From Siphonodentalium dalli (Eukaryota > Mollusca > Scaphopoda > Gadilida > Siphonodentaliidae), in NCBI GenBank assembly GCA_032622095.1, contig CP136061.1, forward strand, positions 190,098,369-190,162,368: a stretch of 64,000 nt of DNA. Direction: 5' to 3'. Positions within the stretch are counted from its first letter, which is position 1. Each line of letters starts with the position of its first letter. The notes below the pieces were generated by a model. That model saw only the letters and a program-made list of their open reading frames with translations. It was not told where the DNA came from and made no database searches. Shown in pieces: positions 22,870 to 62,696 of this stretch. The position numbers and the translations under genes were made by a program.

Positions 22870-24393
22870 GTAATTGTATCATTTACTAGCATCTATTAAT
22901 ATATGTTCACTTTTCTTGTCAAATGCATAATATTCATCACTATTTGAGATAATTCTAGAAAAAATGTCACAGTGTCATATAGTTTATTTAACTTCATATA
23001 GTATATACTTTTAACAGATAACTCAACGGCTATAACAATACAAAGAAACAAACAAACGAAAACATTGTTCAACAAAGAAGCGTGCATCAGCAATGACGTC
23101 AATGTTAAGTGTGTTTTTCGAAGGGTCTTCAGACACTTCCGCCTCAATCGACATATATACCATAAAACACATCATGGTAACACTTTTACGACAAACTTTG
23201 TTTCTATTGTTTTGAGGTAGGCAAAATAACAAAGTTCAGTTCTTAACAGTAAGGTGTCAGCATATAGGGATACAACATCTGTGGTCTTGGTGTCAAGGAA
23301 ACTGGCGACACAACTGGTCCATTCTGGAAGCCTTGGAGGGCACTCTGTGAGTAAGGCAAGAATGGTCTAGGAACTGTAGCAGAAATCTGATATTGAGACA
23401 TGTAATCCAACGGAGACAACATCGGCTGCACAAGCGGAAACTGACAGGAGACAGGTGACGTCGAGTTGTTTGTTGCATGCCGGGAAGACTTTGTACGTGC
23501 TCGCTTGTTCTGGAACCAGATCTGAAAATAAAATTATATGGATCAATTAAGAGTGTGCATGACTGGGGAACGTTAATTATTGCTTATCGATTGAAGAGAT
23601 AAAATGAAATCGTGTTGATAAATTATATTGCAAATAATAGTAATTGCGTATTTTGTTGAACATAGAAACCACTGTGATGGAGTTGGCAGAAGATTCAAGA
23701 TCAAAGCGAATTGATAAACCATGGTTTAATGATATCTGTCGAGAATACCGCAAACGATTTCGTGTGGCTAAAGGTAAACATGAGCGAACACCAAATAACG
23801 AAACAAAACAAGCCTTACGAAGTTCAGAACGCGAATACAAAACGGCCCTTAATAAAGCGAGCAATGATTATGAAATCAAAATCCGAAGCGAAATGGACTT
23901 ATGTATTAAAAATGACCCCCGAAAGTTCTGGCAAGACATTAGAGGTAACAAATCGAAAAAATGGTACGACACATGTATATCAATAGACACATTAACTGAA
24001 CATTTTAAAACTATGAATTGTTCAATCCCAAACTGCCCACCCATCAATACAGCAACTGAGAATGAACAACCGGATGGTGTCAACGAATTAAACCAGTTAA
24101 ATTCTCAAATATCTGAAACTGAAATATTTCGTTGCATTCACAAATTAAAGACATGTAAAGCCTCATCAGATGACGGAATAATAAATGAATATTTAAAAGC
24201 ATCAGCGAGTAAACTAATGCCACTATATGTTTCACTATTTAATGCTGTCTTTGACAGCGGCATTATCCCTGATTCGTTGAAAACAGGCTCGATTGTGCCA
24301 ATATACAAAAATAAAGGGTCCACTGGTGACCCAAATAATTACAGAGGAATAACTATCCTCAGTTGTATGGGCAAGTTATTCACGTCAATTTTA
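22870..24393. repeat. Tandem unit C (partial): terminal exon + LINE-A fragment
   Basis: It starts with the same GTAATTGTATCATTT as units A and B and holds homeobox terminal exon C and 701 bp of LINE-A. It then stops in the RT domain at 24393, where host intron sequence resumes. It lacks LINE-B. Confidence 0.8.
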
Positions 24394-24450
24394 AATAGTA
24401 ATTGCGTATTTTGTTGAACATAGAAACCACTGTGGTGGAGTTGGCAGAAG
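23636..24450. repeat. 57-bp direct repeat flanking the LINE-A fragment in unit C
   Basis: 23636-23692 and 24394-24450 are identical except for one base (AATAGTAATTGCGTATTTTG ... GAGTTGGCAGAAG). They are host intron sequence, also present once at 49688-49743 in the intact gene. The LINE-A piece (23693-24393) lies exactly between them. It is either an unusually long target duplication or the trace of a template switch or deletion. Confidence 0.8.
23693..24393 (+). pseudogene. LINE-A copy C, truncated at both ends
   Basis: It begins at the same base as copies A and B (DSRSKRIDKPWFND) and is in frame to GKLFTSILN, then ends inside the RT fingers without a tail. It lacks the catalytic YADD region. 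TGG to TTG near 24277 changes DSWKTG to DSLKTG. Confidence 0.85.
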
Positions 24451-24507
24451 GGTTTTCGACATCAATGGAGAATATATGTTGACACAAGCTTTCGGTCATT
24501 GTGGTCA

Positions 24508-24930: not shown

Positions 24931-25263
24931 TATAAAATGACGTATAATGTCAGTGAGGCCACAAGCATCAATCTGGGATTATTAAGAGGTAGCAACGAAA
25001 CCATTATACTGATCCGAGTGCAACCCGCGTCAGATGTTATGCCGTGATGAGATAGTGCCAATGTTTCTAGTTTTTTATACAAAGAAAAAAAAACCTTATG
25101 TGGTCCATGTCCCCCCAACGTTGTGTTATTGTCTGAATTGTATCGAAGTAGAGACGAATGGTTCCTACCTTGATGTTCTTCTCTGGTATATCGAGCTCGT
25201 TGGCCAGTTGTTCTCGCTCGTCGTTGTCGGGGTACGGGTTCGCGTTGAACGCGTCGAGAAGCT

Positions 25264-28200
25264 ATATACAATTTAATCATCCTCGGAGGTGACATCCACC
25301 CTAATCCGGGCCCTGATACGAATCAAAACGTAAAAATTATGCATTTAAATGTTCAAAGTCTGACTCCCAAGATAGATATTATTAGTACCGAAATGCCTAA
25401 CTTTGATATCTGCTGTTTCACAGAGACATGGCTAGGTGTAAACATCCCCAACGAACGATTACTAGTTCAAGGTTTTGGCGAACCGGAGCGAAGGGACAGG
25501 GCTGATTCATATGGTGGGGTAATAGTCTACATAAGGAATAACATAGCATATAGACGGCGAATCGATCTCGAACACCCGGGAATAGAAAGCGTTTGGATAG
25601 AACTATGCCATGGAAATACCAGAAGCCTAATCGGTGCTATATATAGACCCCCAAATTGTAACTGTTGGACTGAAATTACAACTATGTTAGATTCGGCACG
25701 TGACCTATCCCCACATAACCTGATAATCATAGGAGACCTTAATGAAAACCAATATTGCCCATCAAATAATAGAATCTCAGCAGTATGTAATCAACTAACA
25801 TTAAAACAGTTAATAACGGAATCTACCAATTTTACTGAATATTCGGAAACTCTTATCGATGTTGTCCTGGTAAATAAAAACTGCTCTGTCTTTGAAAGTG
25901 GAACCCTTGAACCCTTCCATGGAAATTATATTCGCTATCATATTCCCACATTTGTAGATATCCTAATTTCGGAAAAGAAATCTCAACAGAAACCGTTTAC
26001 TAGGCGTGTATTTAACTACGATGAAGCAAATTTCACAGATCTAGATAAGTCAATCTTAGAACAAGACTGGAAACAAACCTTTTCAAATACCCCCATCAGT
26101 GAAATGACCAACGTACTAACAACTTTCTTACAAGATCAGATCAATATTTTTGTCCCAAGTAAAATTGTGCGTTGTATGAAAGATGAACCAGCATGGTTAA
26201 ATTCTGGAATAAAACAACATATCAAACAACGAAAGCGCTTGTATGAAAAAGCTAAAGTTCGTAATACCATCAACGCATGGACAAACTATAGGAAAAAACG
26301 AAACGAAGTAATCTCCCTTATAAGAAAATCAAAATCTGACCACATAGTGCACATGCAAGACATCCTGAATAATCCAGAAACACCCTCATCTGCCTGGTGG
26401 AAAACCTTTAATAAACTCTCAGAAAAAAACAGCAATAGAGCTATTCCGTACTTGTCGTGGAATAACAGCACACATACATCCAACTATGACAAAGCAGAAG
26501 CTTTTAATGACTATTTCTGTAGTGTTTCATCTATAGATGACTCAAATGCCACAATACCAGAATACACCCCATTGCAATCTATTCCAGAACTAAATGAAAT
26601 ATTAATCTCTGAATCGGATATAATAGAAACCTTGAAAAATCTTGTTCCTGATAAATCTTCCGGTTACGATGAGATAAGTCCGCGCATACTAAAAAAATGT
26701 CCTAGCCTGCATCATCCATTGAAAATAATGTTTAAAACATTCATGGAAAACTCTTTCTTCCCCGATGAATGGAAACGTGCAAACGTTGTTCCAATTTTTA
26801 AAAAAGGAGACCCAACAGACCCAGGAAACTACAGACCCATATCCCTATTAAGTTGTATTGGTAAAGTATACGAGAAATGCATAGCCAAACATCTACTCAC
26901 ATTTCTTACCAAAAATAGTTTACTGTGCAAACACCAAGCTGGATTCCTCCCCGGGCAGTCAACATCACACCAATTATGCGAAATTTATCACGAAATTAGT
27001 AAAAGTTTGGACAAAGGCCAGGATGTCAGAGTTTTATTCTTCGATATAAGCAAAGCATTCGACAAAGTTTGGCACCGTGGTTTAGTTTATAAATTAAAAA
27101 GAATGGGTATCACAGGTAATCTTCTCAGATGGATTGAATCATATCTAACAAACCGCGAGCAAAGAGTAGTTTTGGGCTCAGAATCTTCTTCCTGGGGAGG
27201 GGTTAAAGCTGGTGTGCCCCAAGGATCCGTCCTTGGGCCGATTTTATTTTTAACCTACATTAACGACATTGTTAAAGGAATTAAAAGTGACATTAGACTA
27301 TTTGCTGACGATACGTCCATATTTCTGCCTATTAAAGACCCGATACAAAGTGCCAAAATATTGCAAAAAGACATAAACACACTGGAAGCATGGTCGAAGA
27401 GATGGCTAGTAAAATTCAATGCCAGTAAATCAGAATCTATGTGCATATCACGTAAACAAAACCCCTTGAATCATCCAAACTTATATATGAACAATGTCCC
27501 ATTGAACACAGTATCAAACCACAAACACCTTGGTGTCGTTTTTGAAAACAATTGCTCATGGAAGGCCCATATTGCGTCTATATCTAAACTTGCATGGTAT
27601 CGAATATCTATGTTACAAAAACAAAAATACGTTCTAAATAGAGAAACCCTAGAAAAATGTTATTTCACTCTTGTAAGACCAATCATAGAATACGCAAACG
27701 TTATCTGGGACAATTGCACAATAGCAGAATCTGACAAGTTGGAAGATATACAACTAGAAGCTGCGCGTATTGTAACAGGATGTACCAGATCCACGAGTAA
27801 TAATAACCTTATAATTGAAGCAGGTTGGGAGACTCTAAAAAAGAGACGTGAAAATTCAAAACTTTATTTATATCACAAAATGATCTATAATTCGGCCCCG
27901 GAGTATCTACAAAACTTAGTGCCCCCACTTGTATCCGAGGTATCGAAAATTAATACCCGTAACTCAAAAAACTTTCGGCTACCCCAATTTAACGCCAATT
28001 CACACGACCGGTCATTCATATTAAATACAGCAGCCCTCTGGAATTCACTGCCGATGAGCACACGCGACATAGTGAATTACGACGAATTTAGAACAACAAT
28101 AAACACTTGTCATAAAAAGAAGAATTCACGCTTCAAATATTGTTACACAAGAAAAGCACAAGTAATCCACACACGTCTTAGAAACTATTGTAGTGACCTA

Positions 28201-28455
28201 AACGCGCATAAATACCAAAATTATATCTCTGTCACTGATCGCTGTGTTTGTGGCCAAATAGAAGATAGCTACCACTACATATTCCAATGTCGGCGTTACC
28301 GTCCACATAGGCAAATTCTTCTTGGAAAGATCCCAGACGCAATAGTTCCCTCAGTTTATACTTTCCTCAATGGCGATGATACAATGAGTCTACAAACGAA
28401 TCTAACTATTTTTGAAGAATTCCAAAAATTTATTATCCACACACAACGATTTTAG
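25264..28455 (+). CDS. LINE-C endonuclease-reverse transcriptase, uninterrupted
   Basis: The frame is open from the first base of the element. Codons 9-17 read GDIHPNPGP, a 2A-like linker motif. The AP-type endonuclease starts at KIMHLNVQSL (codon 24) with FTETWL, YGGVIVYI, AIYRPPN and IIGDLNEN (near codon 155). The RT domain includes SSGYDEISPRIL, YRPISLLSCIGKVYEKCI, QAGFLPGQST, FFDISKAFDKVWH, GVPQGSVLGPILF and LFADDTSIF (near codon 680). A finger CVCGQIEDSYHYIFQC lies near the C-terminus. The order and motifs fit the CR1/jockey superfamily. Residues needed for RT catalysis are present and no stop is seen over 1064 codons, so this is the best-preserved LINE in the window. Translation start is unclear because the 5' part is missing; the first ATG is at 25339. 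Confidence 0.9.
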   Translation: MYNLIILGGDIHPNPGPDTNQNVKIMHLNVQSLTPKIDIISTEMPNFDICCFTETWLGVNIPNERLLVQGFGEPERRDRADSYGGVIVYIRNNIAYRRRIDLEHPGIESVWIELCHGNTRSLIGAIYRPPNCNCWTEITTMLDSARDLSPHNLIIIGDLNENQYCPSNNRISAVCNQLTLKQLITESTNFTEYSETLIDVVLVNKNCSVFESGTLEPFHGNYIRYHIPTFVDILISEKKSQQKPFTRRVFNYDEANFTDLDKSILEQDWKQTFSNTPISEMTNVLTTFLQDQINIFVPSKIVRCMKDEPAWLNSGIKQHIKQRKRLYEKAKVRNTINAWTNYRKKRNEVISLIRKSKSDHIVHMQDILNNPETPSSAWWKTFNKLSEKNSNRAIPYLSWNNSTHTSNYDKAEAFNDYFCSVSSIDDSNATIPEYTPLQSIPELNEILISESDIIETLKNLVPDKSSGYDEISPRILKKCPSLHHPLKIMFKTFMENSFFPDEWKRANVVPIFKKGDPTDPGNYRPISLLSCIGKVYEKCIAKHLLTFLTKNSLLCKHQAGFLPGQSTSHQLCEIYHEISKSLDKGQDVRVLFFDISKAFDKVWHRGLVYKLKRMGITGNLLRWIESYLTNREQRVVLGSESSSWGGVKAGVPQGSVLGPILFLTYINDIVKGIKSDIRLFADDTSIFLPIKDPIQSAKILQKDINTLEAWSKRWLVKFNASKSESMCISRKQNPLNHPNLYMNNVPLNTVSNHKHLGVVFENNCSWKAHIASISKLAWYRISMLQKQKYVLNRETLEKCYFTLVRPIIEYANVIWDNCTIAESDKLEDIQLEAARIVTGCTRSTSNNNLIIEAGWETLKKRRENSKLYLYHKMIYNSAPEYLQNLVPPLVSEVSKINTRNSKNFRLPQFNANSHDRSFILNTAALWNSLPMSTRDIVNYDEFRTTINTCHKKKNSRFKYCYTRKAQVIHTRLRNYCSDLNAHKYQNYISVTDRCVCGQIEDSYHYIFQCRRYRPHRQILLGKIPDAIVPSVYTFLNGDDTMSLQTNLTIFEEFQKFIIHTQRF

Positions 28456-28885
28456 TTGCTTAATTATAAATCGGTCAGCAGCATCTTAAGCATCATACGT
28501 AACATGTAATAAAATGAATAATCCGTTCCATTCTACTCCCCTCACCACTCCCCTCCATCTTTGTCTTCTTATCTTAAATTCTCCTCTTATTCTTTATACC
28601 CAAAAATCATAGGAACAATGTGATATCCGAATTATCTATCTACTGTCCGGTCCCGACACTAACGTCAATTTCCATGATGAGTTATATAGTATATTATACA
28701 GGGGCCCTAGATGATACATGGGGAGAACGACACCTGAAAAGCCATGTGCTTACTGTCGTTCTCCCTTTCTACCAGATATATCACATATTACCATTATACA
28801 TTATATTAATTCCTTGTGTATTCCTTCGTTCAATTTATATTATGTATATTATATATTTGGTGGATAAATAAACTATGCTTAAACC
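25264..28885 (+). mobile_element. LINE-C retrotransposon inserted in a homeobox exon
   Basis: The 7-bp sequence AGAAGCT is present on both sides (25257-25263 and 28886-28892). It occurs once at the matching place in the intact homeobox exon (about 50156-50162). The element is 5'-truncated just upstream of its NPGP motif, carries one long EN-RT frame (to 28455), and has a 3' UTR of about 430 bp ending in GGATAAATAAAC sequence. Confidence 0.9.
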
Positions 28886-28892
28886 AGAAGCT

Positions 28893-29063
28893 TCCCCATC
28901 TGATCTGGAGAATAGTTGACTCGATTCTTTTTCTTGCTGGTTTTCTCTGCGGATGATGTTGGTGTGGTGCTTCTTGATGACGATGGTGAGCTGCCGGTGA
29001 TGTCAGGTGAACTGCCGGTTGCTGGTCGGACAAAATCACATCCAATAAAATCGGCGCGCGTCC
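28893..29063 (-). pseudogene. First half of the disrupted homeobox exon
   Basis: It reads GRADFIGCDFVRPATGSSPD, a Ser/Thr/Pro-rich stretch and then KNRVNYSPDQMGKLL, the homeodomain N-terminal arm and helix 1 start, before LINE-C cuts it. It matches the exon at 50068-50360. The acceptor TTTCAG|GG is normal. Confidence 0.85.
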
Positions 29064-30221
29064 CTGAAACAAAAAATACTGAGATCAGAATAATGGAATT
29101 ACATATTGTATATGTTACACATTAAATGGACATTTGTCGATTCAGAGTTCCTGGTGGAGGTGGGTGGGTGGCTTCAAATACCAGAATATCAGTGGAACCT
29201 TTAGCTTTATAGGTGATGGTGAATCGAATGATGAGAAAACGCGTGCAGCCGTGTGTGCTATTTATATTATTTGTGATACCATTCATTACACATTATACCC
29301 CCGCGCCCACATGTATAGGATATATGCGATTTTTATATTCCACTATAAGGTGAGACCTGGCATGCCATTGTGCCATGCGACCTTACTGGTCAGTTTATAA
29401 GTGTTTTGATTTCGCCGTTTTCAAAGTTGAATTATTCCATGGGCGCCAAATACATGCATGCAGGCACAAAAATTAACAGTTACGGGTTTGATGACTGCTA
29501 TAGTAATGGTGAAATACATGGACTGTTGATAGGCGTGTGCGATCTTGTTGTTTTCAGACGGAAGGCATCTTCGAATGCTTTCACTTCGTCGCCAAATTTG
29601 TCCATGGTATGTTGATCCTGAAAATAAACATATGTTCTCGTTAGAGTATCGCAATGGTTAGCTATTGCCAAGAATCTCCACTCTATGCTAACGCCCGTAT
29701 ATAGCCATAGAGAGATCCGTGGCATGATATACGCAATGGTATCTTACAGCCAAAGCAATGCACTCTAATTATGGGCTGAATTAAGAAGCTGGTAATGATG
29801 TATTTGTTCGCCGTTCAGTTGCAGACAGTAAATTCGGTTAACATCTGGTGCATATCTTGAAATATCATGAAATGAGGACGAGAAATTAAGTATTTGTATT
29901 TGTTGTCATGTGTGTGGACACACGGAACATTGTATAGTATGTTAAAGTCTTGCTAGAAAAAAGACGTATAGAACACCTGTCTGTTTGTGGCGTTTGCAAT
30001 ATAATGTTAGCATGTGTATTGATCGAGCACGCCCGCACATACACATAAATACAGATATATAACTTACAGGTTCCTTCGTTTGTTTGTCGATCATATCCGA
30101 CAATAGAGATGAAATACAGAAATTTCTGGAATTCATGTTCGAATTATTTGTGCAAGAGAACTACCACAATGATAACAAATTGACTCAGATTAAGTTTGCG
30201 AATGAAATCAGTGGTTGTCCC

Positions 30222-30312
30222 AGGGTATATATAGCAAAGTGTTTGTAAGAACATGACAGGAATGTTTTGAGTAATGACCGTCACCGGCTTCGTCTTTAAA
30301 AACAACCAATCA
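30222..30312 (-). promoter_or_regulatory. TATA and CCAAT-box promoter of the first minus homeobox gene
   Basis: TATATATA lies at 30226-30233, about 90 bp upstream of the ATG at 30136. An ATTGG box (CCAAT on the plus strand, 30306-30310) lies about 75 bp further upstream. Spacing fits a classic RNA polymerase II core promoter. The same arrangement occurs in the second copy. Function is inferred from position only. Confidence 0.4.
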
Positions 30313-30601
30313 GTGCAATAATTGGCTGACATATTTCGTGCTGTAAGCAAGATCCGAACCACAGACATGAGAAGCGGTGTGTTCTTTGAAGCCAGGGTCG
30401 GGTGTTTACTTTGTAATTAAGTGTCATCATTACACGATTGAGTTTGACAATCACCTTCGAAGCAATTGGTGGATGCGCTGTCTATACATCTGAATTATTA
30501 TGTTATATTATATTATTATATTATAATTATAGCGCATGCCATTGCTAAACAAATGGTGAAATTAATCCGGGTAGGCCTAATATCATAACACATGTATGTT
30601 C

Positions 30602-30764
30602 ATAAGGATTAACTGCCATGTGGACTGTTTAATGGAGATGTAACCGTGAGGTAAGTGGTCATAACTTGTGTAAAACCCGAAGGGATTTACATACAAGTTA
30701 TGACCACTTACCTCACGGGGGTTACATCTCCATAAAAACAGTCCACATGACAGTTAATCCTTAT
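30602..30764. repeat. 163-bp hairpin in the divergent promoter region, copy 1
   Basis: The left arm starts ATAAGGATTAACTGCCATGT and the right arm ends ACATGACAGTTAATCCTTAT. The arms pair over roughly 75 bp with a few mismatches (GGTAAGTGGTCATAACTTGT against ACAAGTTATGACCACTTACC), around a loop at AAACCCGAAGG. It could be a foldback element or a transcribed structured RNA. No target duplication is obvious. Confidence 0.75.
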
Positions 30765-32231
30765 ATTTATATACATTTAGCGAAAAAGCCACTTTTGTAA
30801 ATGTATTTTAATCGAAAAGTGTATCGTGACAAAACCAGCCCAAAATAACCCATAGCACCCTTGGCAAAAGTTAACAGGAACAATTTCTTTATATTGAAAC
30901 CTGATTATTTATTAAGTCAATCCTGCGCGAGTCCAAATGGGCCCAAAACATTCCGCGTTTTTCTTTCCGATATCTATGTCGCGTCGATCTAATTCTTGGG
31001 TTTGCAGTTATGAACTGTTGCGCGTTCACCGAGAAATAATTGCAACTAGTCACGTGGGCGCCGACCAATCGGAATGCTGGATTTAGTGATAATCACTCTT
31101 AGTATGTAAATATATATATGTAAGGTCTATAATGTTCAATTTGTGTGAACATTATTTATTTATCCCAACGAATCATTAGAGAATTTACAAAACATACATA
31201 TATCTACGAGGAAGAAATTTGGGAGATAAGACGTGGATTTGACATCAAGCGCTTAAATGGAGCCATCTCATAAGAAAATAACATAATTTACATTGTAGGA
31301 AGATATAGATGTTCATTTCTCCACATTTAAGATATATATTTTAAGATAATACCATAATAATAAAGAGCGTTTCGTAGTTACAAATGTGCTTATATACTCT
31401 ATGATAGAACGCCGGGCGCTTATATGGAGCCATCACATCAGAAGAGAAGTATTTGCATAGTGGAAAGATAGAACTATAGAGATCGGAAGGTGAAAGACAA
31501 AAGGTATGAAGTGGAAAATACCCACAGTATACATCGTTATCCACAGGTCTCTGTTAACAATTAACCATAACATAATTTATCTCATATCTACTTGTTTTCT
31601 GACGAAATAATAAAAAATAGCACCTTGTTTGTGTTCAGATCCTCTACAAGCCATGCACAAACCACTTCTTTCAACTATACTATTTCAGCTGCAACAATTA
31701 ACGTACTATTAATTTAAATTTAATTTAATTTGTTTTGTATTTGGAATAAATACTGTTCACACCAATCTCTTTTACTCCCAAATGTAAAAATTCACATTCC
31801 AAATTGCAGCCAAAATAGGAATAAATCAGAAAACATAGAATGAAAATCGTGTTCTTGAAATCTATTGTTTGGAATACTTGGTATAGTGTCTTAAAATTCT
31901 TCAAGCTATGCATGGTGAGTGGGAAAATAAACAATAATTATTATTATTATAATTTTTTTTATTAAACGCATCTTAAATAAAAACAAATGCGGGTAGGAAA
32001 TTTGTTATTTAATTCCTGACAGACAGAGCTCATATATGCCGAAAAGGTGTCGCTAACAGTTTATGGTAGTGAAAACATAGGGCTTCGGTCCCTTCACTGA
32101 GACATGTCGGTCTTCTTGGTGTAACGTTCCAGCGGAATATGAGACAGGAACACGTTAGCGAACCAATCGTGACACTTGTTTGTATAAGGCCGTCTGAAAG
32201 AACTGCTCAAATGGCTTCTGTCATATTCAGC

Positions 32232-32238
32232 TATATAA
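32232..32238 (+). promoter_or_regulatory. TATA-like box of the plus homeobox gene, copy 1
   Basis: TATATAA lies 61 bp upstream of the ATG at 32299, inside GCTATATAACCGCC, and is conserved in copy 2 at 53558-53564. Confidence 0.35.
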
Positions 32239-32298
32239 CCGCCACCAAATTGTCCAACAAGCATGAACCGTGAGTCATTCTAACAATAGCGTGCCATC

Positions 32299-35200
32299 AT
32301 GAATTCTACTAGCTTCAGTATATCCAGTTTGTTTGCTGATATGATTGGAGGTTCGGTGGGCAGAAATGTGAGTTTATTTATGAAGTTTTGCGCATGCAGA
32401 GTATGAAGTATTTCGCGAACATCCCTATTAATGTATCTCATATGTATCAATACTTACATACAAAATCATAATGAACTCGGTATAGAACAAAATTTATATA
32501 AACCGTTTATAATGAAATATAACCCGTGTCTATATGTATAGTTCTTTAAAACGTTTTTACATGACCTGACATTGGTGTCGCAATTTAAAAAGGAACACTA
32601 CGGTCGCTTGCTTAATCACAAAAATACAATAACTAGATTACGTAGACATATCTAGGCTCCTGTATATGGATATTATATTTTTCTTGTATGTTTACCCAAT
32701 TAACAACAATCATTGGTGTATATAGAGTTGACATTATACACCACTGGCCTATCGAATCAGTCTATATACTATTAATGGAGACAATGAGCGAAACAATGCC
32801 ATATATGGCCCATAAACGAAGTTCTATTGTATACCGGAGTATAGAAAGAGTTAACAACTTTAGTTGTTACAGTATTCGCTATCTATTATATTTGTTTGGA
32901 ACTTCTGTCTGTCTGTCTGTTTGTGTCTTATAGACTCGAAAACTGCTAAACCGATCCGACTCGAATTTGGTATGTAGGCCTACTCTGATCCCGGGAACAA
33001 TACGGGCGGGCCCAATTTAACATGCAACCGTTTCCTTGACATCGACATGGACCTCGCTCATATACGCATGCTTCTGGACCTCGACCGATCCGACTCAAAT
33101 TTGGTATGTAGCCTTATATCAAAGATGCGAACCATGAATCTCCCTTTAAAATGCGTTCTCGAACTCTATCAAATATCGATTGTCCCGATATTGACTTATG
33201 GAGCAGAAGTTTTGGGTTTTGGGAACAACAATATTATACAGCGATTGGAATTATGGTTCCTTAAATATATACTCAAAGCAAAACGGTCCACGCCAAATTC
33301 TATGATATACGGTGAACTTGGGATATTCCCAGTCACGATGAAAATCTAACATCAGATGTTGAATTATTGGGGTCACTTAGTGAGCGGAAGTAGAAACAAG
33401 ATCGCGTATACTCTATACTGGACACTGTGTAGTAGATACAACCAAAGGGACAGATATGTTAATAACAAATCCAAATGGATCAATTATATTTACTCGTTAT
33501 TAAATGAACTTGGGCTCAGTGGCACATGGGCTACACACGCTCCCAATTCGAAATTGCATACAAACGATTCTATTTTAATTTTTAAATTCCGTACTCGAAA
33601 TCATCGCTTACCAATAGAAACAGGAGACTGGATGAACTTACCCGATGATGAAAAAAACTGCAAATTGTGCGACGAAGACGCACCAGGTAATGAACTACAT
33701 ACACTTCTTAATTGCGATGCCTTGAACGATTTAAGGCGAAACTATATAGCAAAATATTACTACACACACCCGAGTAACTGGAAATTAGCGCAACTATTTA
33801 ACAACCCAAAAGCGAAAGTAATGCGTGGAATCTGCAAACTGATAACTCAAATAAACAAGCTGTACTATAATAAATAATATAAACACAATGAATATATATG
33901 AAATGAACCATAAATGAATACCTCTCCACCCCCCCCTCCCACCGTAAACATACCCCCCCCCCCCAATACAATATCCATTTTCAGATGTGTCAACTCCCAC
34001 CGATTCAAATCAGGTCGAATAGGAGCAACAAACAGTTAATAAAGTAGTGTGTCCATATAATTGTTTAACAATACGTTATTACACGTCTGAAATCGATGAA
34101 CTTATAGCGGCGCGTGCCCGTTTGGCGTATGCGTAAATTTATTGTATATACAATGGTAGTCCAAACCTCACCCCTGGCAGGTGGCATGAACTATATATTC
34201 GCTCTTTTTGTATCACATTCATAATCTTGCCATTTCATATCTATTGTTGTTTTTTTTTGTTATTATTGGGAAGGGCAGCCAGTGTATAAATCATTTTGTA
34301 CTTTTCTTGAAATACCATTGAAAAATGGTGATGAGAAATAAACGCATTTGTATTGGTAAACCAAGAGACACATGCGAAATGTATGGGCAGCCATTCGGTC
34401 GGAAATTACATGAAATAAAAGTTAATGGTGGTTTGTGAAAACAACTACAATCTATTTCAAAACAATAGTCTCCATTTTCAAACCAATGGTCGTTCTTTGA
34501 TTCAATAAGAGACAATTACGTGTTAACAGATATAGATTCACAATCAACGTTGACCGATGCAAAATTAATGTTCTATTTTAATTTAATAGTATTCATTGTT
34601 CAACTAATATCTAATAACAAACAATTAATACAGCTTTGCTCATATTCAGCAAACGTACATTCCGTTTCAATAGCCATATTTTCTCAATCAATAGACATAT
34701 TTCAAACCAATAGACGATTTCTCACGATCAGTGATTATCGTTATCAAACTAATAGACCTTATTGTAAAACTAATAACTCATGGTAAAACTAATAAATAAA
34801 ACCGTAATTAACTTATTGTAAAACTAATAACCTATTGTAAAATTAATAGACCTTATTGTAAAACTAATAACTTATTGTAAAACCTATATCTAAAACCGTC
34901 ATTAACTTATTGTAAAACTAATAACTTATTGTAAAATTAATAGACCTTATTGTAAAACTAATAATCAATAGACATATTTTAAACCAATATACTATTTCCC
35001 ACGATCAATGATTATCGTTATCAAACTAATATATAATAGCGGAATCAACTATTTCAGGTCAAACCAATGAGCTCATTTGAAATTAATGATTAAAACACAA
35101 ACCTATAAGCAATTCCAAAATATATAATAGACTAGAAGGTGACCCGACTTCGTCCGGGCTTTGACCTTGAATTGTCTATTTTGAAGGCCAAGGTCAAGTA

Positions 35201-36800: not shown

Positions 36801-36834
<34 letters not shown>

Positions 36835-41343: not shown

Positions 41344-41373
41344 GGGTGTGGGGACGAGAGGCCTTCCTCAAAT

Positions 41374-49289: not shown

Positions 49290-51463
49290 TTAACAGTATG
49301 GTGGCAGCATATAGGGATACAACATCTGTGGTCTTGGTGCCAAGGAAACTGGCGACACAACTGGTCCATTCTGGAAGCCTTGGAAGGCACTCGGTGAATA
49401 CGGCAAGAATGGTCTAGGAACTGTAGCAGAAATCTGATATGGAGACATGTAATCAAACGGAGACAACATCGGCTGCACAAGCGGAAACTGACAGGAGACT
49501 GGTGACGTCGAGTTGTTTGTTGTATGCCGGGAAGACTTTGTACGTGCTCGCTTGTTCTGGAACCAGATCTGAAAATAAAAGTATATGGATTAATTAGAGC
49601 GTGCATGAGTAGGAAACGTTAACTGTTGCTTATAAATAAAATAAAATCGTATATAAATTATAAAAATAAAAATTATATTGCAAGTGATAGTAATTCAGTA
49701 TTTGGTTGAACATAGAAATCACTGTGATGGAGTTGACAGAAGGATTTTCGACATTTATGGCGAATATACGTTGATACAAGCTTTCGGTTATGGTGGTTGT
49801 ATGACGTAGATTTAACGTCAGTGAAGCCCCAAGTGTCAATATGGCATTATTAATACCGAAGTAGCAATGAAACCATTATTATGCTCTGAGTGCAACCCGC
49901 GTCAGATATTATGCCTTCGGGATGAGAAACTATAACTGCTAATATTTCTGGTTGCCGGTTGCATTTTATACAAAGAAAAACAAATGTGGTCCGCGTCTCC
50001 CCAACGTCGTGTTATTGTCTGAATTGTATCACGGAATTCACGTAGATTAGAGACGAATAGTTCATACCTTGATGTTCTTCTCTGGTATATCGAGCTCGCT
50101 GGCCAGTTGTTCTCGCTCGTCGTTGTCTGGGTAAGGGTTCGTGTAGAATGAATCGAGAAGCTTCGCCATCTGATCTGGAGAATAGTTGACTCGATTCTTT
50201 TTCTTGCTGGTTTTCTCTACGGATGATGTTGGTGTGGTGCTTCTTGATGGCGATGGTGAGCTGTCGGTGATGTCAGGTGAACTTCCGGTTGATGACACGT
50301 AACTGTCATCTGCATCAGCTGGTCGGACAAAATCACACCCTATAAAACCGACGCGCATCCCTGGAACAAAAAATACTGAGATCAGAATAATGGAATTACA
50401 TATTGTATATGTTCCCCGTCAAGTGGATATTTATTGATTCAGAGTTCCTGGTGGAGGTGGGTGCTTCAAATATCAGAAGATCAGTGAAACCTTTAGCTTT
50501 AGGTAATGGTGAGTCGTGCAGCCGCGTGTGCTATTTCGTATATTTGTGTTGGTGCTATATATTTACTCAGATGCAAGCTCCATATTGAGTTCATTCTATT
50601 ATTTATGATACCATTCATTACACATTACCCCCGCGCCCACATGTATGCTACAAGGTGAGAGCGCCCACATGTATGCCATAAGGTGAGACCTGGCATGGCA
50701 TTGTGCCATGCTACCTTAGTGGTCAGTTTATAACTGTTTTGGTTTCTCCGGTTTCAAAGTTGAATTATTCCATGGGCGCCAAATACATGCAGGCACAAAA
50801 ATTAACAGTTACTTGTTTTATGACTGATATAGTAATGGTGAAATACCTGGACTGTTGATAGGCGTGTGCGATCTTGTTGTTTTCAGACGGAAGGCATCTT
50901 CGAATGCTTTCACTTCGTCGCCAAATTTGTCGATGACATGTTGATCCTGAAAATAAAAATATTGTCTCGTTAGAGTATCGTAATGGTTAGCTATTGCAAG
51001 AAACTCTACTCTATGCTAACGCCCGTAGCCATAGAGAGATTCGTGACATGATCTACGCAATGGTAACTTACAGCCAAAGCAATGCACTCTAATTATGGGC
51101 TGAATTAAGAAGCTGGTAATGATGTATTTGTTCGCCGTACAATTGCGGACAGTAAATTCGGTTAACATCTGGTGCATATCTCGAAATATCATGAAATGAG
51201 GACGAGAAATTAAGTATTTGTATTTTTGTTTTCATGTGTGTGAACACACGGAACATTGTATAGTATACTAAAGTCTTGTTAGAAAAAAAGACGTATAGAA
51301 CACCTGTCTGTTTCTTGCGTTTGCAATATAGTGTTAGCATGTGTATTGATCGAGCACACCCTCACATACAAATACATACAGATATATAACTTACAGGTTC
51401 CTTCGTTTGTTTGTCGATCATATCCGACAATAGAGATGAAATACAGAAATTTCTGGAATTCAT
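49290..51463 (-). CDS. PRD-like homeobox protein, second minus-strand gene (246 aa)
   Basis: Four coding exons on the minus strand: 51463-51395, 50946-50847, 50360-50068 and 49568-49290. Every intron is GT-AG and phases are 0, 1 and 0. Exon 1 (MNSRNFCISSLLSDMIDKQ) has an eh1-like F-C-I-S-S-L-L motif. Exon 2 encodes DQHVIDKFGDEVKAFEDAF. A Ser/Thr/Pro linker precedes the homeodomain (about residues 106-165), which has R5, L16, F20, W48, F49, Q50, N51 and R53, with the intron between residues 46 and 47. The tail is Pro/Tyr/Phe-rich and ends YMLPPYC. GFIGCDFVRPADADDSYVSS aligns with ELISGDFARSAELDASYVSV of the plus gene, so they are paralogues. No disabling change is seen. Role: nuclear transcription regulator, probably a repressor. 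Confidence 0.85.
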
Positions 51464-51548
51464 GTTCGAATTATTTGTGCAAGAGAACTACCACAATGAT
51501 AACAAATTGACTCAGATTAAGTTTGCGAATGAAATCAGTGGTTGTCCC

Positions 51549-51640
51549 AGGGTATATATAGCAAAGTGTTTGTAAGAACATGACAGGAATGTTTTGAGTA
51601 ATGACCGTCACCGGCTTCGTCTTTAAAAACAACCAATCAG
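51549..51640 (-). promoter_or_regulatory. TATA and CCAAT-box promoter of the second minus homeobox gene
   Basis: TATATATA at 51553-51560 is 90 bp upstream of the ATG at 51463. CCAAT (plus strand) is at 51633-51637. Same spacing as copy 1. Confidence 0.4.
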
Positions 51641-51928
51641 TGCAATAATTGGCTGACATATTTCGTGCTGTAAGCAAGATCCGAACCACAGACATGAGAA
51701 GCGGTGTGTTCTTAGAAGCCAGGGTCGGGTGTTTACTTTGTAATTAAGTGTCATCATTACACGATTGAGTTTGACAATCACCTTCGAAGCAATTGGTGGA
51801 TGCGCTGTCTATACATCTGAATTATTATGTTATGTTATATTATTATATTATAATTATAGCGCATGCCATTGCTAAACAAATGGTGAAATTAATCCGGGTA
51901 GGCCTAATATCATAACACATGTATGTTC

Positions 51929-52091
51929 ATAAGGATTAACTGCCATGTGGACTGTTTAATGGAGATGTAACCGTGAGGTAAGTGGTCATAACTTGTGTAA
52001 AACCCGAAGGGATTTACATACAAGTTATGACCACTTACCTCACGGGGGTTACATCTCCATAAAAACAGTCCACATGACAGTTAATCCTTAT
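51929..52091. repeat. 163-bp hairpin in the divergent promoter region, copy 2
   Basis: Same sequence and fold as 30602-30764. I see no substitutions in the arms. Confidence 0.75.
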
Positions 52092-53557
52092 ATTTATATA
52101 CATTTAGCGAAAAAGCCACTTTTGTAAATGTATTTTAATCGAAAAGTGTATCGTGACAAAACCAGCCCAAAATAACCCATAGCACCCTTGGCAAAAGTTA
52201 ACAGGAACAATTTCTTTATATTGAAACCTGATTATTTATTAAGTCAATCCTGCGCGAGTCCAAATGGGCCCAAAACATTCCGCGTTTTTCTTTCCGATAT
52301 CTATGTCGCGTCGATCTAATTCTTGGGTTGCAGTTATGAACTGTTGCGCGTTCACCGAGAAATAATTGCAACTAGTCACGTGGGCGCCGACCAATCGGAA
52401 TGCTGGATTTAGTGATAATCACTCTTAGTATGTAAATATATATATGTAAGGTCTATAATGTTCAATTTGTGTGAACATTATTTATTTATCCCAAAGAATC
52501 ATTAGAGAATTTACAAAACATACATATATCTACGAGGAAGAAATTTGGGAGATAAGACGTGGATTTGACATCAAGCGCTTAAATGGAGCCATCTCATAAG
52601 AAAATAACATAATTTACATTGTAGGAAGATATAGATGTTCATTTCTCCACATTGAAGATATATATTTTAAGATAATACCATAATAATAAAGAGCGTTTTG
52701 TAGTTACAAATGTGCTTATATACTCTATGTTAGAACGCCGGGCGCTTATATGGAGCCATCACATCAGAAGAGAAGTATTTGCATAGTGGAAAGATAGAAC
52801 TATAGAGATCGGAAGGTGAAAGACAAAAGGTATGAAGAGGAAAATACCCACAGTATACATCGTTATCCACAGGTCTCTGTTAACAATTAACCATAACATA
52901 ATTTATCTCATATCTACTTGTTTTCTGACGAAATAATAAAAAATAGCACCTTGTTTGTGTTCAGATCCTCTACAAGCCATGCACAAACCACTTCTTTCAA
53001 CTATACTATTTCAGCTGCAACAATTAACGTACTATTAATTTAAATTTAATTTAATTTGTTTTGTATTTGGAATAAATACTGTTCACACCAATCTCTTTTA
53101 CTCCCAAATGTAAAAATTCACATTCCAAATTGCAGCCAAAATAGGAATAAATCAGAAAACATAGAATGAAAATCGTGTTCTTGAAATCTATTGTTTGGAA
53201 TACTTGGTATAGTGTCTTAAAATCCTTCAAGCTATGCATGGTGAGTGGGAAAATAAACAATAATTATTATTATTATAATTTTTTTTATTAAACGCATCTT
53301 AAATAAAAACAAATGCGGGTAGGAAATTTGTTATTTAATTCCTGACAGACAGAGCTCATATATGCCGAAAAGGTGTCGCTAACAGTTTATGGTAGTGAAA
53401 ACATAGGGCTTCGGTCCCTTCACTGAGACATGTCGGTCTTCTTGGTGTAACGTTCCAGCGGAATATGAGACAGGAACACGTTAGCGAACCAATGGTGACA
53501 CTTGTTTGTATAAGGCCGTCTGAAAGAACTGCTCAAATGGCTTCTGTCATATTCAGC

Positions 53558-53564
53558 TATATAA
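53558..53564 (+). promoter_or_regulatory. TATA-like box of the plus homeobox gene, copy 2
   Basis: TATATAA, 61 bp upstream of the ATG at 53625, in the same context as copy 1. Confidence 0.35.
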
Positions 53565-53624
53565 CCGCCACCAAATTGTCCAACCAGCATGAACCGTGAG
53601 TCATTATAACAATAGCGTGCCATC

Positions 53625-56600
53625 ATGAATTCTACTAGCTTCAGTATATCCAGTTTGTTTGCTGATATGATTGGAGGTTCGGTGGGCAGAAATGTGAGTT
53701 TATTTATGAAGTTTTGCGCATGCAGAATATGAAGTATTTCGCGAACATACCTTCAACTATTAATGTATCTCACATATCAATACTTACAAACAAAATCATA
53801 ATGAACTCGGTATAGAACAAAATTTATATAAACCGTTTATAATGAAATATAACCCGTGTCTATATGTATAGTTCTTTAAAACGTTTTTACATGACCTGAC
53901 ATTGGTGTCGCAATTTAAAAAGGAACACTACGGTCGCTTGCTTAATCACAAAAATACAATAACTAGATTACGTAGACATATCTAGGCTCCTGTATATGGA
54001 TATTATATTTTTCTTGTATGTTTACCCAATTAACAACAATCATTGGTGTATATAGAGTTGACATTATACACCACTGGCCTATCGAATCAGTCTATATACT
54101 ATTAAAATTAGAGACAATGAGCGAAACAATGCCATATATGGCCCATAAACGAAGTTCTATTGTATACCGGAGTATAGAAAGAGTTAACAACTTTAGTTGT
54201 TACAGTATTCGCTATCTATTATATTTGTTTGGAACTTCTGTCTGTCTGTCTGTTTGTGTCTTATAGACTCGAAAACTGCTAAACCGATCCGACTCGAATT
54301 TGGTATGTAGGCCTACTCTGATCCCGGGAACAATACGGGCGGGCCCAATTTAACATGCAACCGTTTCCTTGACATCGACATGGACCTCGCTCATATACGC
54401 ATGCTTCTGGACCTCGACCGATCCGACTCAAATTTGGTATGTAGCCTTATATCAAAGATGCGAACCATGAATCTCCCTTTAAAATGCGTTCTCGAACTCT
54501 ATCAAATATCGATTGTCCCGATATTGACTTATGGAGCAGAAGTTTTGGGTTTTGGGAACAACAATATTATACAGCGATTGGAATTATGGTTCCTTAAATA
54601 TATACTCAAAGCAAAACGGTCCACGCCAAATTCTATGATATACGGTGAACTTGGGATATTCCCAGTCACGATGAAAATCTAACATCAGATGTTGAATTAT
54701 TGGGTTCACTTAGTGAGCGGAAGTAGAAACAAGATCGCGTATACTCTATACTGGACACTGTGTAGTAGATACAACCAAAGGGACAGATATGTTAATAACA
54801 AATCCAAATGGATCAATTATATTTACTCGTTATTAAATGAACTTGGGCTCAGTGGCACATGGGCTACACACGCTCCCAATTCGAAATTGCATACAAACGA
54901 TTCTATTTTAATTTTTAAATTCCGTACTCGAAATCATCGCTTACCAATAGAAACAGGAGACTGGATGAACTTACCCGATGATGAAAAAAACTGCAAATTG
55001 TGCGACAAAGACGCACCAGGTAATGAACTACATACACTTCTTAATTGCGATGCCTTGAACGATTTAAGGCGAAACTATATAGCAAAATATTACTACACAC
55101 ACCCGAGTAACTGGAAATTAGCGCAACTATTTAACAACCCAAAAGCGAAGGTAATGCGTGGAATCTGCAAACTGATAACTCAAATAAACAAGCTGTACTA
55201 TAATAAATAATATAAACACAATGAATATATATGAAATGAACCATAAATGAATACCTCTCCACCCCCTCCCACCGTAAACATACCCCGCCAATACAATATC
55301 CATTTTCAGATGTGTCAACTCCCACCGATTCAAATCAGGTCGAATAGGAGCAACAAACAGTTAATAAAGTAGTGTGTCCATATAATTGTTTAACAATACG
55401 TTATTACACGTCTGAAATCGATGAACTTATAGCGGCGCGTGCCCGTTTGGCGTATGCGTAAATTTATTGTATATACAATGGTAGTCCAAACCTCACCCCT
55501 GGCAGGTGGCATGAACTATATATTCGCTCTTTTTGTATCACATTCATAATCTTGCCATTTCATATCTATTGTTGTTTTTTTTTGTTATTATTGGGAAGGG
55601 CAGCCAGTGTATAAATCATTTTGTACTTTTCTTGAAATACCATTGAAAAATGGTGATGAGAAATAAACGCATTTGTATTGGTAAACCAAGAGACACATGC
55701 GAAATGGGCGAAATGTATGGGCAGCCATTCGGTCGGAAATTACATGAAATAAAAGTTAATGGTGGTTTGTGAAAACAACTACAATCTATTTCAAAACAAT
55801 AGTCTCCATTTTCAAACCAATGGTCGTTCTTTGATTCAATAAGAGACAATTACGTGTTAACAGATATAGATTCACAATCAACGTTGACCGATGCAAAATT
55901 AATGTTCTATTTTAATTTAATAGTATTCATTGTTCAACTAATATCTAATAACAAACAATTAATACAGCTTTGCTCATATTCAGCAAACGTACATTCCGTT
56001 TCAATAGCCATATTTTCTCAATCAATAGACATATTTCAAACCAATAGACGATTTCTCACGATCAGTGATTATCGTTATCAAACTAATAGACCTTATTGTA
56101 AAACTAATAACTCATGGTAAAACTAATAAATAAAACCGTAATTAACTTATTGTAAAACTAATAACCTATTGTAAAATTAATAGACCTTATTGTAAAACTA
56201 ATAACTTATTGTAAAACCTATATCTAAAACCGTCATTAACTTATTGTAAAACTAATAACTTATTGTAAAATTAATAGACCTTATTGTAAAACTAATAATC
56301 AATAGACATATTTTAAACCAATATACTATTTCCCACGATCAATGATTATCGTTATCAAACTAATATATAATAGCGGAATCAACTATTTCAGGTCAAACCA
56401 ATGAGCTCATTTGAAATTAATGATTAAAACACAAACCTATAAGCAATTCCAAAATATATAATAGACTAGAAGGTGACCCGACTTCGTCCGGGCTTTGACC
56501 TTGAATTGTCTATTTTGAAGGCCAAGGTCAAGTAGGGTCACGATTTGACCCGTCCAAAACACTGCCCGAACAAAAGTACCCGACAAAAGTATCCGTCGAA

Positions 56601-58136
56601 ATCCATTCGGTTTTACCCGATTTGACCTTGAATTGATCATTTTGAAGGTCAAGGTCAGGTCGAGGTCACGATTTTACCCGTCCAAAACACCCAGTGGACA
56701 AAAGTAACCATATGTATAAAATTTCGTCGAAATACCATCAAAATTGGCGATTTGACCTTGAATTGACCCGATTTCAAGGTCAAGGTCACGTCGCACGGTC
56801 AAATTAATATGCTTATGAGACTCCCCATACGAAAGTACCCCCACATACCAAGTTTCATCGCGTATGCGTAAATTTATTGTATATACAATGGTAGTCCAAA
56901 CCTCACCACTGGCAGGTGGCATGAACTATATATTCGCTCTTTTTGTATCACATTCATAATCTTGCCATTTCATATCTATTGTTGTTTTGTTTTGTTATTA
57001 TTGGGAAGGGCAGCCAGTGTATAAATCATTTTGTACTTTTCTTGAAATACCATTGAAAAATGGTGATGAGAAATAAACGCATTTGTATTGGCTTACGTTG
57101 ATCCCGGGAACAATATGCATGGGCGGGTCCAATTTCACGTGCGACCTTGACCTCACTCTTATACGCTCATATATTTAGGCATGTTTCTGGACAAATATAT
57201 ATAAAAAATATTGTTAATGGCTAATTCGGACAGAAACTGCAAACAGTTTAAGAATCTTTAACTTTTTTATTGCAGAAATGCTTGTTGCTTGACGATTCCA
57301 TTGACGTGAATTCGATCTCCTTGGGCAACGTTAGCTTGACACTCGACAGCAGTCTTGGTAAGTTACAATCTGGATTTTCTTTAATAACCCACAAGTCAGT
57401 AATTGCACAGGCCGTCATTAAATGCATGCTATGAATATTGGCGGTTGAATTTTTAACGAAATGGAAAGCTTCCGACAGGAATACTAAGAAATGTTTGGAA
57501 CATTAGACGTTTTTATGTTGAATGCTCACCACAATTAATTCTTTGGGCATGAGTAATGTCTGGACCAATCAGAGTGTGATAAGCCCTAATCGATTTACTT
57601 CGTCCATTGATCGCAAATTACGCGACGTATTTATACAGAAGTGGTGGGAATCTATCTCGAAATATATATATATAAAATATTGTTAATGGCTAATTCGGAC
57701 AGAAATCAAGCAAGTTTGCATTTTATAGAATTATTAAGACACATTTCCAAAGAGAACATTACCTATCTCTGGACAACAACAGATTTGTACACAGCATTAT
57801 GATGTTCCGAACAAGAAATAACAAACTACCCGTTGAACAGGGCTCATGGTACAATGTTGACTACTCGGAACGGCAATGTACCCTCTGTAATTTAGAACTG
57901 GGCGATGAATACCACATTATACTTAAGTGCTCGCAAATTCACGAGTTGAGACTGAGATATATTCGCCCTTATTATTTTCGAAGACCAAACTCACATAAGT
58001 TACTGCAATTATTTAACTCCCGAAATGGAAAAACCGCAAGGAACCTGTCGATTTTTGTCGAAAAGGTCTTAGTCCTCTTGAGGCTAAGTAGCATCCATAA
58101 CACAAACCCCACTAACTGGACTACATTGATCAAATC

Positions 58137-58173
<37 letters not shown>

Positions 58174-60119
58174 TAAAAGCAACAAGCATAAACATTGCCA
58201 TATTTTCGTATATATGTGCTCTATATATTATAACGCATGTGCATGCATATATATATATAGTATGTATCTGATTATGTAATTCAAAACATCTGTAATATCA
58301 TTATATGATGACCAGAATAAATAAATTGATTGATTGATTGATTGGGAAACAATACTGATGTTGAAATTTCGAACTCTGTGACTGTTTAAGATGTATTTGT
58401 TGTTGTAAACTGTTGATCAGTTTGGGGTGCTTATTAATTCCAATCTTATTGGGCTCTGCATGGACTGACGTATAATAGACGAAGGATTATGTTGATACAA
58501 TATAACATGAATTTCGGAAGTTTGCTAAATTTACCCTTATATATATACATATATTGTTGATGGTTAACAACTTAACATACAACCTATTGGGTGAAACATT
58601 AATAAAAATAACTTGCTGCTTTTTGTGTATGAAACGTTCGACATTCCATTGACTGCTCCTTATTTTATTATGTGATATATTATTTCTTACAGCCGCCGAA
58701 CTTATCAGTGGTGACTTTGCGCGATCCGCCGAACTTGATGCTAGCTACGTATCTGTTACTGGAAGCTCCCCTGGCACAACCAACCTACCACACATCAAAC
58801 ATTCACTAGACAGTCACAACAACAACTCACCGACATTCGATCCTAGCACTGACATCGTAACGTTTACCAACCAGCAAACCGGCAGCCCCAGTCAAAATGA
58901 CATACCAACGCCTGTCTCCCCGTCAGCAACACACAAGAAGAAAACCAACAACAAGCAGAAGAGATTCCGAACCAACTACTCTCCCGAACAACTAGACAAA
59001 CTATGTGATGCTTTTACGAGCAACTCCTACCCAGATTCCGAAATGCTAGCGAAATTAAGCGGCGAACTTGAAATTCCTGAAAAAAATATAAAGGTAAGAT
59101 GCGGTTTAAAATACCGGGTGGCAAACTAAATATACATGTATACATACTAAGGCGAAACTCATGATTGTAAAATAAAGTTAGTGTATATATCTTACAAGAA
59201 ATAGATACCGCGGTATGAAATAATAGATATATGAATCGAGGACACCAGTTCGGAAAAAAACTTCCATAGCTCAATTAATATTGATTAAATTTTTCTCATA
59301 TAATAATACTAGATCGGTGTTACTATGTACAATGAAGGAACCAAAGCCAAAGCCCGTGTGAGAACTAGCTATATTACTAATAAGAATACGAAATATAGGG
59401 TGTACAGATCCCCACGCGTGTGATGGAAAATTATTAATTTTTTTAAATATTTCCGTATATGGTCGCTACTCTCATTAATTATATTGATGTATTTCATTTC
59501 ATATATTTTGAAATTGGCTTTCTTTTTTTTCCAGATATGGTTCCAGAACAAAAGAGCGAGAAAAAGAACCAGGCAGGTCACGGACGTAGATCCGACGCCG
59601 TCGACACAAGCAATGGTACTACCACTCGCCATGCCGCATATGATGCCACCGTTCCACCAGTACGTACCGACTTACCAGCAGATTTCACCACCGCCTACCA
59701 CTTCACCACACTGGTACTCGAGTGGAGCTTCTCCAGCATTGAAATCAAGTTCGTCGTCAGAAACCACAGAAGAACAGCCGATAATACATCCGAAAACCAA
59801 CGATCAGACCACATCACACCAGGATGAGCCATCGAAGTTCGACCGTCAGCCCGGTGTGCCGATCCAATTCCATCAAACTCAGACGTCAGAACACAATCCA
59901 TACAAGGAATCCCCTCCGGCGAACCTATATCCGGTGTCCTACAACCATTACGTGCCAGCAAACATTTCACCGCCCAACAGTCGACCAGGGCTCACACACA
60001 GCTATAACCATGTTGGATACCAACAACCCTCTACCACCGCCTCGACGTCATCGCAACAGCAATTGGTTAACCAGTTTAATCTGCCGTACATCCATATGCA
60101 TGGGTGTCCGTCTTACTGA
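53625..60119 (+). CDS. PRD-like homeobox protein, plus-strand gene copy 2 (378 aa)
   Basis: Four coding exons: 53625-53693, 57276-57357, 58693-59093 and 59535-60119. Exon 1, with the eh1-like FSISSLF, and the homeobox exon look identical to copy 1. Exon 2 differs at three bases, all changing amino acids: DDSIDVNSISLGNVSLT here, DDYTDVNSISLGNVSLP in copy 1. The last exon has CAA (Gln) where copy 1 has a stop, so the protein continues QLVNQFNLPYIHMHGCPSY and ends at 60119. This is probably the ancestral C-terminus. A poly(A) signal AATAAA lies at 60252-60257. Same predicted role as copy 1. It is the intact member of the plus pair and the better reference model. Confidence 0.85.
54445..55210 (+). 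pseudogene. LINE-E 3' fragment in intron 1, copy 2
   Basis: Counterpart of 33112-33877, with the same internal stop (near 54680) and the same 140-bp deletion, so both predate the segmental duplication. The finger reads CKLCDKDAPGNELHTLLNC. Confidence 0.8.
55310..56870. repeat. LINE-E 3' flank block, copy 3
   Basis: Counterpart of 34007-35524, including the minisatellite at about 56085-56305 and the GACCTTGA repeats. Confidence 0.7.
57709..58346 (+). pseudogene. LINE C-terminal fragment in intron 2, copy 2
   Basis: Counterpart of 36373-37010. The frame ends at 58176 after one extra ATT repeat. The tail ATTGATTGATTG is at about 58327-58343. Confidence 0.75.
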
Positions 60120-62666: not shown

Positions 62667-62696
62667 GGGTGTGGGGACGAGAGGCCTTCCTCAAAT

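Follow-up and report, generated by a model that had tools for sequence, protein, structure and literature searches.

What are the head-to-head pairs of divergent homeobox genes in this DNA of the scaphopod Siphonodentalium dalli, and in what form have they been copied? The window, by which we mean the whole stretch of 64,000 nucleotides (C1:190098369-190162368 of a 2.23-Gb genome in nine contigs), holds two such pairs, A and B, each with a minus-strand gene type (M) and a plus-strand gene type (P). The reading we favor, with a probability of about 0.7, is that M and P are sister genes of a lineage-specific, PRD-like lophotrochozoan repressor family that bears an eh1-like motif, and that they were amplified as a divergent pair.

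The pair and its copies

Homeodomain exons lay near 10.9, 16.3, 23.5, and 49.6 kb of the window on the minus strand, and near 38.2 and 59.5 kb on the plus strand. Pair B is complete: M_B (49290-51463, minus strand) encodes 246 residues and P_B (53625-60119, plus strand) encodes 378. Both have four exons, GT-AG junctions, intron phases 0, 1, and 0, and a first exon of 69 nucleotides (nt). The homeobox intron (phase 0) falls between homeodomain residues 46 and 47 in M_B, P_B, and P_A. The exons of pair B are:

51395-51463, minus strand: M_B exon 1, 69 nt, with the start codon and eh1-like FCISSLL; donor CCT/gtaagt
50847-50946, minus strand: M_B exon 2, 100 nt, phase 1 at its end
50068-50360, minus strand: M_B exon 3, 293 nt, homeodomain residues up to 46
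49290-49568, minus strand: M_B exon 4, 279 nt, homeodomain residue 47 (IWFQNKRAR) to the stop
53625-53693, plus strand: P_B exon 1, 69 nt, eh1-like FSISSLF
57276-57357, plus strand: P_B exon 2, 82 nt, phase 1 at its end
58693-59093, plus strand: P_B exon 3, 401 nt, homeodomain residues up to 46
59535-60119, plus strand: P_B exon 4, 585 nt, homeodomain residue 47 to the stop

An earlier note, made from the letters of the window, had described a gap of about 2.2 kb inside each pair, a tandem copy of the pair, and one exon plan for all four genes. The first two were borne out. The distance from ATG to ATG is 2161 bp in pair B and 2162 bp in pair A, and a self-comparison of the window gave a direct repeat of 13.4 kb (29262-42672 against 50594-64000, 98.6% identity), together with several smaller repeats. 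The exon plan held for M_B, P_B, and P_A, but not for M_A.

P_A has the exons of P_B, but a C-to-T change brings the stop 19 residues early and leaves 359 residues. M_A is a pseudogene. Its homeobox exon is interrupted by a 3622-bp insertion resembling a long interspersed nuclear element (LINE), its exon-2 donor site is mutated, and exon 3 has lost 27 bp over the SYVSS stretch. M_A is unable to encode a normal homeodomain. Pair A and the other damaged copies in the window are as follows:

32299-32367, plus strand: P_A exon 1
35940-36021, plus strand: P_A exon 2
37355-37755, plus strand: P_A exon 3
38196-38723, plus strand: P_A exon 4, premature stop, 19 residues shorter than P_B
30068-30136, minus strand: M_A exon 1, start found, end set from the 69-nt length
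29518-29617, minus strand: M_A exon 2, donor site mutated
28886-29063, minus strand: M_A exon 3, 5' part, with the 27-bp deletion
25264-28885, plus strand: LINE-like insertion in the M_A homeobox exon, 3622 bp, open frame of 1063 residues, AGAAGCT at both sides
25169-25263, minus strand: M_A exon 3, 3' part
23243-23521, minus strand: M_A exon 4
16019-16297, minus strand: M copy with exon 4 only, acceptor AG now AT
10611-10889, minus strand: M copy with exon 4 only, acceptor AG now AT

The earlier note had not included the two M copies reduced to exon 4. The 1063-residue frame in M_A is probably a reverse transcriptase, judged from a reading of its sequence. Near its start it reads GDIHPNPGP, which we take to resemble a 2A-type sequence. 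Apart from any pair, window positions 44753-46371 hold a third copy of the segment at 33911-35525 and 55244-56860 (98.8-99.4% identical).

Around the window, the claim of a repeatedly copied pair was confirmed, with many more copies than the letters of the window could show. An array of 404 kb (C1:189901689-190305634) contains at least 15 M-type exon-3 loci (including the interrupted M_A and a frameshifted copy, M'), at least 11 P-type loci, and one P-related locus, X. These counts are lower bounds, from genome searches that scored at most 150 candidates each. Among the matches listed, all 12 P or X loci of the array have an M locus as head-to-head neighbor, and three M loci have no P partner. 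On the left side, up to the window, P occupies the minus strand and M the plus strand; in the window and to its right, P occupies the plus strand and M the minus strand. One more M/P pair lies outside the array, at C1:214.75 Mb.

In a DNA search with a 2.3-kb intergenic query, both first-exon ends were present at nine sites, of which the window holds two, the rest of the array six, and C1:214.75 Mb one; two further matches were partial. The nine complete units span 1767 to 2755 bp, with start codons about 1.6 to 2.6 kb apart.

X and M' (C1:189.90 Mb) also stand head to head, and 1.7 kb separates their start codons (positions 4991, minus, and 6723, plus, of locus L010). The frameshift of M' is in exon 3, and X exon 4 was not seen within about 2.2 kb downstream of X exon 3. 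The homeodomains of X and P share 26 of 46 residues, the X promoter resembles that of P, and the M' promoter resembles that of M (0 of 1000 shuffles each). Since this diverged pair has the same arrangement, the head-to-head order is older than the recent copies.

Four of the five M loci modeled were complete (M_B, M_L005, M_214, and M_L074), with 245 or 246 residues each and their splice junctions kept; M_L006 gave no model. Seven P loci were modeled (P_B, P_A, P_L005, P_L075, P_214, P_L006, and P220). Complete models with all junctions kept were obtained for P_B (378 residues), P_L005 (379), P_L075 (360), and P220 (332), the last being a distant paralogue at C1:220.74 Mb that agrees with P_B at 201 of 326 aligned residues. 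P_214 has intact junctions and a stop after 232 residues. Exons 1 and 2 of P_L006 were not recognizable in the stretch examined, which contains a run of N. The counts of gene models exclude P_L006 and M_L006.

P is under purifying selection over longer time. Between P_B and P220, nonsynonymous divergence (dN) is 0.257 and synonymous divergence (dS) 0.673, a dN/dS of 0.38 (0.18 in the homeodomain). Against P_A, P_L005, and P_L075, P_B gave dN/dS of 0.32 to 0.43 at dS of 0.008 to 0.128.

The strongest competing explanation, which we consider a serious one at somewhat less than even odds, is that the array marks a hot spot of neutral duplication, where segmental duplication multiplies the pair, most copies are decaying, and only one or two matter. 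In its favor, M_A, M', P_214, and those reduced to exon 4 are broken, P_A is truncated, dS between copies is small, and the three M loci without a P partner also lack an adjoining match to the promoter pattern described below (among the matches listed). However, nine intergenic units still have both first-exon ends, the frames are fully open in M_B, M_L005, M_214, and M_L074 and in P_B, P_L005, and P_L075, and P is under purifying selection when measured against P220.

Kinship of M and P

The exon plan, the exon-1 sequence, and the homeodomain flank support a common origin of M and P. Outside the homeodomain, the N-terminal parts aligned with a score of 93, against a maximum of 62 in shuffles (0 of 5000). 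Exon 1 alone scored 52 against a maximum of 39 (0 of 5000), and the N-terminus without exon 1 was likewise reached by none of 5000 shuffles. The C-terminal parts were at chance level (2384 of 5000). In homeodomain residues 1-46, M and P are identical at 25 of 46. We infer that the pair arose by inverted duplication; the similarity seen between M and P covers coding exons and one short element of the promoter.

Both genes carry a homeodomain (PF00046): P (exons 3 and 4) reached 66.9 bits against a cut-off of 22.9, and M exon 3 alone reached 44 bits in the genome search. In a homeodomain phylogeny of the kind suggested by the earlier note, M, P, and X came near each other among PRD, LIM, and divergent types; support was low and the class was not fixed. 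This tree of 53 sequences included 37 of 60 short homeodomain loci of the same genome (L011-L070; 23 were left out), and its reference class labels are guesses. The fragment-like L001 (C4:85.38 Mb) entered in this tree only.

An intron between homeodomain residues 46 and 47 is common in the PRD class and not exclusive to it, and numerous other homeodomain exons in this genome likewise end near residue 46. Residue 50 is Q. A Pfam scan of P from exon 3 onwards gave homeobox families only and no paired domain, for which exons 1 and 2 are too short. Membership in the TALE class, to which SPILE belongs, was ruled out: M and P align without the three-residue insertion between helices 1 and 2.

M and P might also be two older family members, not closest relatives, that were joined and then copied as a pair. 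An unrooted tree of six sequences splits M, M', and F91 (the family at C5:91.6 Mb) from P, P220, and X with a bootstrap of 95, so M may have diverged from F91 later than from P. Rooted on the long F91 branch, the same tree makes M and P+X sisters, and the high similarity of M and P in exon 1 and the flank also argues against a later joining, which we regard as unlikely.

The eh1 motif, FxIxxIL, recruits Groucho. An eh1-like motif is encoded in the first exon of M, P, P220, X, M', and F91, with an exact match in M' (FSISSIL) and near matches in P (FSISSLF), M (FCISSLL), X (FGVSSLI), and F91 (FRIDALL). In the stretches examined, the families at C6:156, C6:84, and C6:174 Mb had no convincing first exon of the eh1 type. 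Such a first exon makes repression the likely activity, and M and P are predicted to act as repressors.

Two back-to-back promoters

The region between the two genes of pair B contains:

51464-53624, no strand: pair B intergenic region, two outward-facing promoters, composite element from 51598 (minus) and 53532 (plus)
51929-52440, no strand: dispersed repeat of 512 bp inserted between M and P; the pair A copy starts at 30602

In the copies examined, the pair has two back-to-back TATA-type promoters and not one bidirectional promoter. The TATA box precedes the start codon by 97 bp in M and by 67 bp in P. M and P promoters each have their own copy of the composite element CTC(A/C)AA-N6-CTG(T/A)CA, which begins 26 to 41 bp upstream of the TATA-like box. 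The 512-bp repeat has an internal inverted part and matches on many contigs.

In a bidirectional promoter pair, start sites are less than about 1 kb apart and one core promoter is held in common. That a single shared core element fires M and P, which is one sense of the earlier note's word bidirectional, is very improbable: the head-to-head order in 12 of 12 listed P/X array loci and in the 214.75-Mb pair would suit it, as would the duplication of the intergenic unit as a whole, but about 2.2 kb separates the start codons, the TATA boxes (-67, -97) and upstream composite elements of M and P are separate, and the P220 gene examined has the same element with no M partner. A bidirectional core promoter was rejected on the 2.16-kb distance between start codons and the two TATA boxes.

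Genome-wide, the composite element with a TATA box gave 79 matches, against 35 for a reversed control. Thirty of them, at 22 distinct sites, fall in the array or the 214.75-Mb pair; of these sites, 11 precede first exons of M type and 11 those of P type, or what remains of such exons. The other 49 included 10 from one C7 sequence and 19 from one dispersed repeat, which resembles CTCAAAAGATAACTGACATTGG upstream of TTATAAA and occurs in many places in the genome.

If M and P work as their first exons suggest, they would be Groucho-dependent repressors. Both promoters would answer to one activator, perhaps a TALE-type factor acting through CTGTCA, and this common activator would turn M and P on together. 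TALE homeodomain proteins bind sites of the CTGTCA kind, and a TALE-type protein is our guess for the candidate activator. The TALE class includes spiralian-specific members (PMC8524836). Copying of the pair would raise the dose of both genes, as in other fast-evolving homeobox arrays briefly used in early embryos.

Several results weigh against the reading of M and P as sister repressor genes amplified as a pair. The composite element was picked after inspection, and the 199,092 letters (both strands) in which 13 of 13 occurrences of a slightly wider form stood at first exons of these genes came mostly from these loci. F91 lacks the element. The alignment of the M_B and P_B promoters was weak (12 of 1000 shuffles), five other pairs of M-type and P-type promoters gave 164, 229, 457, 471, and 860 of 1000, and the F91 promoter against M or P types gave 14 to 115 of 1000. 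We dropped the idea of a shared promoter shown by alignment, as only M_B/P_B stands out among the six M-type/P-type pairs. Because the alignments are weak, the claim of promoter kinship rests on the spaced composite element.

At the level of the copies, in two of the 12 neighbor pairs the homeobox exons lie far from each other (about 70 kb and about 19 kb). At C1:220.68-220.76 Mb, one strand carries seven P-like loci, one of them partial, with no adjoining M-type match among the matches listed, and thus pairing is not obligatory. Besides, several copies are broken or shortened (M_A, M', and P_214; P_A; P_L006 in its first two exons). Recent M copies lack clear purifying selection, with dN/dS of 0.58 to 1.46 in four pairs at dS of 0.012 to 0.049, and are too similar for a verdict on selection.

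Other homeobox groups and known systems

Elsewhere in the genome, C6:156321861-156496033 holds at least 41 copies of another divergent homeobox gene, on one strand and mostly at a spacing of about 4.18 kb. No matched stretch contains a stop, and two units were read as locus L007. Derived homeobox genes with the 46/47 break form same-strand groups at C6:84.93-85.00, C5:91.60-91.78, C6:174.63-174.67, and C1:220.68-220.76 Mb; the C5 family has an MNS-x-x-F-x-I first exon in common. Four successive homeodomain matches lie on one strand at C7:140445578-140492230, where L063 appears engrailed-like on reading.

An ordered, lophotrochozoan-type Hox cluster of about 1.8 Mb spans C7:76985207-78820399, with homeodomains that are presumably of Post1, Post2, Lox2, Lox4, Lox5 (KLTGP stretch), and Hox1-5 types. 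The homeodomain at C7:78691344 matches residues 1-45 only, as though an intron divided it; one cluster member appears twice at equal score (C7:77673392 and 77720570).

The following comparisons are limited to what the available parts of the cited papers describe. The earlier note recognized no locus of this kind, yet divergent homeodomain pairs are classical in mushroom mating-type loci, though of other classes (PMC8305134). In basidiomycetes such as Agaricus and Coprinopsis, HD1 and HD2 are divergently transcribed and occur as paralogous pairs per locus, so that both the two divergent homeodomain genes and the copying of the pair recall M and P. However, they are fungal and serve mating type, HD1 is of the TALE type (three extra residues) and HD2 classical, so they are not close sisters, and that account describes no eh1 exon or large array (PMC8305134).

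Among animals, the sea urchin pmar1/micro1 genes are paired-like homeobox genes with eh1 repressor motifs, in several near-identical tandem copies in one DNA stretch (PMC4709884). They belong to another phylum, and head-to-head pairs of two gene types are not described there. In the Pacific oyster, PRD-class clades are confined to lophotrochozoans and two of their genes are expressed from egg to blastula; a tandem array is not described, and this comparison is by description, not sequence (PMC5322547).

Molluscan SPILE genes are a spiralian-specific family with lineage-specific, partly tandem duplication, but their TALE homeodomains have the three-residue insertion that M and P lack (PMC8524836). 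Mammalian ETCHbox genes and the rabbit LEUTX array are fast-evolving, PRD-class, and arranged in large tandem arrays with many pseudogenes; they are eutherian CRX duplicates, and a divergent pair as the copied unit is not described (PMC8208926). Actinernus has large tandem homeobox expansions in one genome too, but of the ANTP class and in a cnidarian (1.39 Gb, 15 chromosomes; PMC10598428).

Among open-licence papers, searched by title and start of abstract, we saw none that described an animal array in which the unit being copied is a divergent homeobox pair. Animals are known to have tandem PRD-like arrays, and fungi to have divergently arranged homeodomain pairs; the variation here is that the two are combined.

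A wider scenario is possible but doubtful. The M/P pair would be the amplified unit of a two-part repressor system, in which twin promoters, under a single activator of the early embryo, yield two related eh1-homeodomain proteins in a fixed ratio. With the genome's other young homeobox arrays (C6:156.3-156.5 Mb, with at least 41 copies; C6:84.9, C5:91.6, C6:174.6, and C1:220.7 Mb), it may form a large lineage-specific set for early control, parallel to but independent of pmar1 and SPILE.

Young, rapidly copied homeobox genes recur in early animal development, as with pmar1, ETCHbox, and SPILE. In this genome, it is a divergent pair that was duplicated, its two genes related, repressor-like, and served by twin promoters, and one array holds about a dozen such units. 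If M and P are co-expressed, the array would be a natural experiment on the dose, redundancy, and co-regulation of new lophotrochozoan transcription factors.

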